DNA of 64,000 nucleotides from Stieleria neptunia. GTDB taxonomy: Bacteria; Planctomycetota; Planctomycetia; Pirellulales; Pirellulaceae. The stretch is taken from NCBI RefSeq assembly GCF_007754155.1, contig NZ_CP037423.1, forward strand, positions 7,374,938 through 7,438,937. Direction: 5' to 3'. The notes beneath the pieces were generated by a model. The model was not told where the DNA came from. It saw nothing but the letters and a program-made list of their open reading frames with translations, and did no database searches. Made by a program: the position numbers and the translations under genes. Below, one piece after another: positions 56,902 to 58,852 of this stretch. Position 1 is the first letter of the stretch. The number at the start of each line of letters is the position of its first letter.

Positions 56902-57007
56902 GGGACGTCGATTGTATGACTGACGGATACCTAAGAAATACACTGGCTCCCCTCTCCCCAAAAAACGCCGAAGTCGCGAAGCGTCGAGAGTTTTTTGGGG
57001 AGAGGGG
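56902..57007. repeat. R5-like terminus and a perfect 17-bp stem hairpin, left of the IS110 gene
   Basis: GGGACGTCGATTGTAT begins at 56902 and continues as GACTGACGG. At 56949-56965 CCCCTCTCCCCAAAAAA pairs exactly with 56991-57007 across a 25-base loop. The inverted partner terminus is at 58731-58755. Confidence 0.75.
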
Positions 57008-57112
57008 TTGGGGGTGAGGGGCAACACACCTGTGCCGCAATGGCATCGAGGACAGCCTCCCGGTCGTGTGCTCGACGACGAGCGATGTGGGTTCCAACGT
57101 CGATTCACCAGC

Positions 57113-57361
57113 CCCCTAGTATCTCGCCTGACTGGCAATTCCAGGCGATTTGATCATCGTTTGGGCTGTCGATGTTGGGTGGCTGCCTGCAGCGGTTTCC
57201 CAACACTGCTGTGTAGATCGTAATTTCCCCTAGGTGGTATTCAACGCCGTGGATGAGCTTGAGTCGCACAGCAGTTCGTTTTGAACCCGAACCGTCGCTT
57301 GATCGACCCAATCGCGTTATCGCATGTGGTCAGATCGTATTCACTAGGATGGGACTTAACT
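57113..57361 (+). ncRNA. Possible IS110 bridge-RNA region (non-coding left end)
   Basis: IS110 transposases of this type are guided by a bridge RNA encoded in the non-coding end upstream of the gene. This stretch of about 250 bp before the transposase has no open frame and contains a hairpin CGCCTG...CAGGCG (about 57124-57146). The target and donor loops could not be assigned. The call is by position and family knowledge only. Confidence 0.35.
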
Positions 57362-58357
57362 ATGAAACAGAAGTACAACCGTGTCATTGGTATTGACGTC
57401 GCGTCAGACAAAATTGATGTCAATGACTCCGCAGGAAAGATTGCCAAACAATTGCCCAACACGATTTCAGCGATCAGCAAAAAGCTGTTCAAGAGAATCC
57501 AAGACACTGAAAATACATTGGTTGTCTGTGAAGCAACTGGCGGCTACGAATATCTGATTGTGGAGGCTGCTCACGACGCTGGTGTACCGATTTGCGTGGC
57601 CAACCCGAGGCAGGTCCGTGACTTTGCCAAAGGGCATGGCTATTTGGAGAAGACCGATGTGATCGATGCATTCATGATCCGCCGTTTTGGCGAAGATGTG
57701 GAAATCCATCTGACACCTCCTCGCACGGCGCAAGAGAAAGAATTTCTTTCAACAGTGCGGCGTCGAACCCAAGTGAAAGATTTGCTCTCCCAGGAGCAAA
57801 ACCGACTCAGTCAAACCCGTGACAAGTTTGCCGCTCAACAAATCAAGGAAACGATTTCGCACCTGAAAAAGCAGCTAAAAAGCCTCGACAAACGCATCGA
57901 AAAGATGCTCAAGGACCTCAGTAAAGTCGATCCCAAAGTAGAAATCTTGTTCAGCGTCAGTGGAGTTGGTCCAGTCACCGCTGCGACACTCCTGGCCGAG
58001 CTGCCAGAACTGGGACAACTCAACCGAGGTCAAATTGCCAAACTTGTCGGTGTTGCTCCGTTGGCCAACCAAACAGGCAAGAGCGACAAGAAACGAAAGG
58101 TCCGAGGTGGACGTTCACAAGTCCGAAGCGTGCTCTACATGGCGACACTGGTTGCAACGAAACACAACCCAGTCATCAAACGTTTCTACGATCGGCTTAT
58201 CGCCAAAGGTAAAATCAAAAAGTTAGCTTTGGTAGCGAGCATGCGCAAATTCCTGACGATTCTCAACAACATGATTCACTGCGGCGAATCATGGAAGAAC
58301 CCTCAGGTCAATGCGAAGAAGGAGCAAAAGGCGACTACGGCACCGTCGCTAAACTAG
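57362..58357 (+). CDS. IS110 family transposase
   Basis: A 331-residue DEDD recombinase. The RuvC-like N-domain is [11 protein letters not shown] (first D), [11 protein letters not shown] (E), [11 protein letters not shown] (D, D). A coiled-coil middle precedes the C-terminal Tnp domain [40 protein letters not shown] and [16 protein letters not shown] with the catalytic serine. Base composition is lower in GC than its neighbours, indicating recent transfer. Nothing in the frame is broken, so it may be active. Confidence 0.95.
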
Positions 58358-58370
58358 GACCGTAGTCGCC
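58330..58370 (+). terminator. Stem-loop spanning the transposase stop codon
   Basis: GGCGACTACGG at 58330-58340 pairs exactly with CCGTAGTCGCC at 58360-58370. The stop codon lies in the 19-base loop. No T-run follows, so it may instead protect the message end or limit read-in. Confidence 0.55.
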
Positions 58371-58852
58371 ATACGTGCTCGATGCGTCATTGACACACCG
58401 GCGACTGAGTTATCCCTGGCACGGTTGCATCTCTGCAGAGCCCTGTTGCGTTTCACCCAGCGGCTCAAGTTTACTGCTGCGCAACAATCGCGTCACCCAA
58501 ATTTCCAAAAATCATTGAACACCGGCGCAATGCCTAAGAAAATCTCGGGGGTTCGGGGGCTGGCCCCTGACCACACTGGATCTCGGAATCGAAAAATCCA
58601 AGATTTTCGATCTGACCTCTTGCCACAATTTAAGACCGTCGCTCATCCCCAGCCCTTCTCCCCCACAAATCGACAAGCAAGCTTGTTAACGATTTGTGGG
58701 GGAGAAGGGTGCCCGTTTGTTATTAATTCCCCGTCGGTAATACAATCGACGTCCCGAGCCTTGGAACGAGCGCAAATTAGTGGGACAGGCCTCCAGCCTG
58801 TCGATGCCGGAATCGCAAGCTGGAAGCATACGCCACTTTCTAGGACCGCGAT
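58371..58852. other. Non-coding right flank of the IS110 gene
   Basis: Contains the IS right end (limit unknown), then a hairpin with a perfect 20-bp stem starting CCCTTCTCCCCCACAAATCG at 58654-58673 and pairing with 58690-58709, whose loop is itself palindromic (ACAAGCAAGCTTGT), then the inverted R5 terminus (58731-58755) and an R1 pair (58780-58836). No gene is supported. Confidence 0.75.
58780..58836. repeat. R1 family inverted pair
   Basis: GTGGGACAGGCCTCCAGCCT at 58780 faces a degenerate AAGCTGGAAGCATACGCCAC ending 58836, just beyond the 3' end of the glycosyltransferase gene. Confidence 0.85.

Follow-up and report, generated by a model that had tools for sequence, protein, structure and literature searches.

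An IS110-group insertion sequence lodged in an older MITE-like repeat of Stieleria neptunia

Features of the locus

The DNA analysed here (the window) is a stretch of 64,000 nucleotides, positions 7374938-7438937 of the single-contig, 10,975,817-bp genome of Stieleria neptunia. Near its end, a transposase gene lies between inverted copies of the terminus of a dispersed repeat, which we call R5 (Table 1). The original prediction had assigned this gene to the IS110 family. This was borne out by matches of its product to PF01548 (E 5e-20) and PF02371 (E 6.8e-19), the profiles of the DEDD recombinases of the IS110 group. The inverted arrangement of the two termini was also reproduced, with the left terminus and the reverse complement of the right one agreeing at 23 of 25 bases and at all of the first 16. 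Each terminus had been described as lying beside a perfect hairpin stem. The 20-bp stem on the right was found as described, but the left one measured 18 bp rather than 17 bp. Both hairpins and both termini lie outside the insertion sequence (IS) itself, and the right-hand kind of hairpin module was also present at unoccupied sites.

The 16-base R5 terminus occurred at seven places in the window when up to three mismatches were allowed. The mean in shuffled sequences was 0.57 and none of 100 shuffles reached seven, so the terminus is not a chance feature. In the whole genome, at up to two mismatches, there were 80 + 70 matches, against 37 + 33 for a reversed control.

Table 1. Coordinates of the features at the locus, numbered from the first base of the window
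Feature	Position	Strand	Basis
R5-type left arm, 216 bp, target core CT included	56902-57117	.	93% to G000:8468403-8468730
R5 left terminal inverted repeat	56902-56926	+	23/25 to right terminus
Left hairpin, part of R5	56949-57007	.	Perfect 18-bp stem, 56949-56966 / 56990-57007
Target core dinucleotide CT, left junction	57116-57117	+	Empty sites CCCCCT/CATCCCC
IS110-family element, 1526 bp, nine genome copies	57118-58643	+	Aligned copies, junctions
Left non-coding end (LE), predicted bridge RNA	57118-57361	+	Families B and C, corresponding place
Predicted left target guide UCCCCU	57226-57231	+	Matches target CCCCCT
Predicted right target guide GGAUGAG	57251-57257	+	Matches complement of CTCATCC
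Predicted left donor guide ACCGUCGCU	57291-57299	+	Identical to IS right end
Predicted right donor guide ACUAG, 5 nt, short and weak	57343-57347	+	Guide matching
IS110 transposase/recombinase, 331 aa from ATG	57362-58357	+	PF01548, PF02371, ORF list
Right non-coding end (RE), 286 nt, ending GTCGCT	58358-58643	+	Aligned copies
R5-type right arm, starting CATCCCCAGCCCTTCTCCCCC	58644-58755	.	97% to empty element over 114 bp, 2 core bases counted
Right hairpin, part of target module	58653-58709	.	Perfect 20-bp stem, 58653-58672 / 58690-58709
R5 right terminal inverted repeat	58731-58755	-	23/25 to left terminus

Ends of the insertion sequence

The genome holds nine copies of this element with 99-100% protein identity (family A), plus three at 46%. 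The nine copies were each 1526 bp long and nearly identical from AGTATC to GTCGCT, with CCCCCT before and CATCCCCAGC after in all nine. The dinucleotide CT stood directly before the window IS and again at the right end of the IS itself. The element itself lacks terminal inverted repeats: its first and last 30 bases agreed at only 11 of 30 in an inverted, ungapped comparison. Both this lack and ends set by site-specific recombination are characteristic of the IS110 group, which is further defined by a circular intermediate and by recombination guided by RNA. A scan of genome contigs found family A in a single relative, Rhodopirellula sp. JC639.

The LE of 244 nt is shorter than the RE, contrary to the usual tendency of the group. 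The excerpts of PMC11208160 available to us describe IS110-group elements with short right ends, as a tendency rather than a strict criterion. Within the RE, the stretch 58507-58581 was 82-90% similar to sequence in relatives, and in five of the six places inspected the similar sequence adjoined an IS3-like transposase frame (labelled by eye). Because of this resemblance, part of the long right end may be an acquired fragment. An Rfam search of the left end and flanks returned only sub-threshold matches, at the hairpins, which we took as chance.

Occupied and empty target sites

The original prediction had suggested seeing whether R5 ends flank other IS110 copies. R5-type arms were found at seven of the nine copies. 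The right R5 terminus was recognisable in all seven, with 0-3 mismatches. The left terminus was present with at most two mismatches in copies L032, L033 and L034 and with four in L036. In L031, L038 and L039 no left terminus stood where expected and in the right orientation; alignment still places their left arms in the R5 type. Both termini at up to two mismatches were thus present in only three of the nine copies, so the R5 membership of the other four rests on the remaining arm sequence. The last two copies, L035 and L037, had no R5-type arms and no properly oriented R5 terminus within 400 bp. The site of L035 was seen empty with both flanks, and that of L037 was matched only by the right-hand module. 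The copy in JC639 (96%) occupied the same target as the nine genome copies. No properly oriented R5 terminus lay within 400 bp of it; the one match there, with three mismatches, was on the right side in the wrong orientation.

An empty R5 element of 328 bp (L050, 8468403-8468730) has both termini and no IS, and reads CCCCAGCCCCCT/CATCCCCAGCCC across the target (the slash marks the junction). Without the IS, the window locus, which lies between a gene labelled fumarate hydratase-like (55320-56831) and one at 58853-60019, would read CCCCCTCATCCCC inside an R5 element. A search for the target gave 64 matches in total. These comprised 17 exact unoccupied sites (CCCCCTCATCCCCAGCCCTTC) and 4 more at one mismatch, 34 sites of the CACCC type with two to three mismatches to the target, and the right halves of the 9 occupied sites. 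The sequence CCCCTCATCC had 26 unoccupied occurrences in the genome, 21 of them inside the hairpin module. Occupancy was 9 of 30 for CATCC-type sites versus 0 of 34 for CACCC-type sites (Fisher p 0.0005), a test that is indicative only because these sites are related repeats. Target modules also formed seven inverted pairs with a spacing of about 430 bp, like the ends of another repeat family (for example 1294172/1294603, 2774883/2775313 and 5271171/5271602).

Ownership of the repeated ends

Two options had been offered for the flanking repeats, namely that the IS had inserted in a member of the R5 family, or that this IS has R5 as its non-autonomous form. The second would make the R5 termini the ends of the IS, and the R5-type arms at seven of the nine copies speak for it. 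However, the block common to all nine ends at the CT core within R5, two of the copies and the JC639 copy lack R5 arms, and the empty element L050 contains no IS sequence. The original prediction had named two results that would refute this option, IS110 copies with unrelated flanks and an empty site with the two termini adjacent. Both were obtained, the former in L035, L037 and the JC639 copy and the latter in L050. The probability left to R5 as a form of this IS110 is negligible.

R5 might also have carried the IS as cargo, with both moving as a unit and hence sharing their arms. One R5 subtype is indeed common to five copies (L031, L033, L034, L036 and L039), but the arms of these five diverged by 4.48-8.92%, against only 5 variable positions of 1526 among the nine IS copies (0-4 differences between pairs). 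The same subtype was also found empty, at L101 (4275127) and at L107 (8202415), an R5-type element without an IS that has lost its right R5 end. Furthermore, identical IS copies also occur outside R5. L034, L035 and L036 do not differ in IS sequence though L035 lies outside R5, and L033, L037 and L038 are identical across three kinds of site. Joint movement is very improbable on this evidence. The near-identical IS copies, the diverged arms and the independence of IS variants from arms indicate recent and separate insertions of the IS into R5 elements that already existed. Both roles for R5, as end or as carrier of the IS, were rejected on the basis of the junctions, the empty sites and the divergence.

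We conclude that the locus almost certainly holds a recently active 1526-bp IS110-group IS, with a predicted bridge RNA, inserted site-specifically in an older MITE-like R5 element. Insertion in a repeat of the R5 family, the first option, thus stood on the exact junctions with the CT core at both, the empty sites, the copies outside R5, a target that the JC639 copy shares with all nine, and the younger age of the IS compared with the arms. The matching ends belong to the older R5 repeat and not to the IS, which settles their ownership.

R5 as a MITE-like element

R5 is short, dispersed and without a gene, and has terminal inverted repeats, as expected of a MITE. Its copies are about 167 bp long, and a search with this form gave at least 40 matches (40 of 210 candidates scored), not all of them full length. 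Other forms measured 328-495 bp, the longest being of the 167-bp kind with a second repeat inside. Of 14 genomes of the genus, its own included, 8 contained the R5 terminus. Three further elements of about 167 bp lie in the window at 44758-44924, 46264-46430 and 49221-49385, the middle one with a degenerate right end. One element in genome G012 (L208, G012:6880464-6881882) is of a 390-bp kind in which sequence of the 167-bp kind takes the place of the middle, which suggests that R5 elements can be mosaics.

R5 stands as an element in its own right, bounded by ends of its own, and often lies between the halves of a short palindrome. Among the 30 copies with printed flanks, many were judged by eye to have this setting, with halves such as ACCCTCCC/GGGAGGGT and TCGCTGC/GCAGCGA. 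No clear target-site duplication was seen among these 30 copies; such a position would hide it. No autonomous partner of R5 was found in the copies read; the R5 pairs inspected among the terminus matches listed (100 of 150), together with those listed for this genome in the survey of the genus, held only nested IS110 elements. The pairs of inverted termini that we noticed 1-3 kb apart contained an IS110 of family A or of family D, described below. The R5 forms of 328-495 bp and six elements of 224-419 bp in G012 leave no room for a transposase gene of the usual size. Our search of the literature found nothing on MITEs in Rhodopirellula.

Predicted bridge RNA and its guides

The recombinase would use a bridge RNA transcribed from the left end of the IS. 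Its target loop, UCCCCU ... GGAUGAG, would read CCCC-CT-CATCC, and its donor loop ACCGUCGCU would read the right end of the IS. In the genome, most occurrences of CCCC-CT-CATCC mark the foot of a hairpin module on one of several dispersed repeats. Insertion in R5 would thus be a by-product of which repeats bear the motif.

Two other IS110 families have targets that differ from that of family A. These are family B (L040-L042 in this genome, and G012), with the target GGTGGGT/GGCACC, and family C (G011), with AACACCCT/CCCGC. By eye, both had guide matches to their own sequences at corresponding places, the target loop following AGATCGT and the donor loop following CCCGA. When left ends were matched against targets across A, B and C, each family scored highest with its own (13, 13 and 12; 7-11 off the diagonal). 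Matching against donors gave 14, 12 and 16 on the diagonal and 10-12 elsewhere, the donor of B scoring 12 with all three left ends. The best-scoring donor pair in B and C lay off the expected place, and the junctions of family B carried GT at one side and AT at the other.

Among 3000 shuffled left ends, the target score was reached by 266 (A), 29 (B) and 731 (C), and the donor score by 148 (A), 704 (B) and 134 (C). The single-family comparisons are thus weak to moderate, so the proposal of a bridge RNA rests on position, covariation and the published system, as given in the available parts of PMC11208160 and PMC11187229. On these grounds, we predict a bridge RNA with target and donor guides in the left end. 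The difference in occupancy between CATCC and CACCC sites agrees with guide-based targeting, as an indication.

The occupied sites, and the unoccupied ones that were printed, all sit at the foot of a hairpin, as they would if the IS recognised a REP or attC-like fold rather than a linear motif through a guide RNA. However, the loop and part of the stem vary among sites (L035, L037 and L093), and CCCC-CT-CATCCCCAGCCC is constant. The left end of the IS also spells this motif, and none of the 34 CACCC-type sites, whose hairpin status was not read, was occupied. Recognition of the fold is unlikely, and we favor reading of the linear motif by the predicted guides.

A deletion form in family D

Three R5 pairs of about 1.95 kb held a different IS110-type element, family D, within a further repeat that we call M2. 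The longer frame of this family matches PF02371. The genome contains 18 copies (L224-L241), and R5 termini were present on both sides in 4 of the 18. Four copies are full length (1669 bp, with a 488-aa frame). The other 14 all lack the same 206 bp of the transposase gene; twelve of these measure 1463 bp and two 1472 bp, being 9 bp longer elsewhere. In the deletion copies, the left 257 nt were identical to the full form in 13 and had a single change in one, and the last 60 nt were unchanged in 13 of 14. Two variants of the deletion junction were seen, one with G (8 copies) and one with T (6 copies). A search of 39 other genomes, allowing up to two mismatches, gave no match to the junction.

The deletion copies occupy separate sites. 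For 11 of the twelve 1463-bp copies, the M2 flanks differed by a mean of 6.49% and the IS by 0.099%. L236 (near 3571355) was omitted from this comparison because its left flank differs; this flank is the outer M2 end, as if a deletion had removed the adjoining DNA as far as the IS. The window has an M2 repeat of about 315 bp without an IS at 18089-18405, with the inverted ends GGTTCTTCG.. and ..CGAAGAACC, and this is an unoccupied family D target (GGGTTGCTCCTCCGCAGAGCC). Comparison of the family D junctions with its own empty site revealed no matching core dinucleotide.

Family D probably has a natural non-autonomous form that keeps the ends and the left region and depends on the four full-length copies for movement in trans. 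The deletion form would supply the guide and the ends and borrow the recombinase. Spread in trans appears the simplest reading of the deletion copies, but gene conversion may instead have spread the deletion among them. What the second option had described for R5 seems to exist in family D and not in this IS, and the deletion form is the more novel part of our observations. We found no description of a non-autonomous IS110 in the excerpts available from the literature searched on deleted or non-autonomous IS110 elements. If the deletion form does move in trans, natural non-autonomous IS110 elements exist. Family D would then parallel the laboratory mini-IS designs mentioned in the available part of PMC11187229, and would bear on the spread of such elements.

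Comparison with known systems

The locus is ordinary in kind: a repeat that bears the target has received an IS110-group element whose left end is predicted to encode a bridge RNA. It shows a nesting of mobile repeats, with IS110 elements lying either in a hairpin module of R5 or in an M2 repeat that is itself inside R5. It also offers a natural test of bridge-RNA targeting, as a predicted guide and both empty and occupied sites are present within one genome. The comparisons below draw on excerpts of the cited papers.

R5 resembles MITEs such as MITEPye1, a 159-bp MITE linked to IS1182 (PMC11578231), in being short, bounded by terminal inverted repeats and without a gene. Unlike the account of MITEPye1, R5 had no partner transposase and no clear target duplication in our searches.

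The IS110 elements ISPa11, ISPpu9, ISPpu10 and ISRm19 lie in REP sequences (PMC1525189). The window IS is like them in occupying a repeated palindrome, but the repeat here is a module within larger MITE-like elements.

For ISEc21, an IS110/IS1111 element with a seekRNA, the upstream non-coding region defines the target (PMC11187229), a role that is predicted here. Both use a linear target in other mobile elements and leave the target bases unduplicated. The target itself differs, and our element is known from sequence alone.

There are also parallels with IS621, an IS110-group element with a DEDD recombinase, a left-end bridge RNA and a CT core within the guides, which inserts in a dispersed palindromic repeat, REP (PMC11208160). 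In contrast to the short right ends described for the group in that source, the right end here is 286 nt long, and the target is a hairpin module of its own genome rather than REP. The window IS shares with IS621 its group, the DEDD recombinase, the CT core, a dispersed palindromic target and, as predicted, a bridge RNA in the left end.
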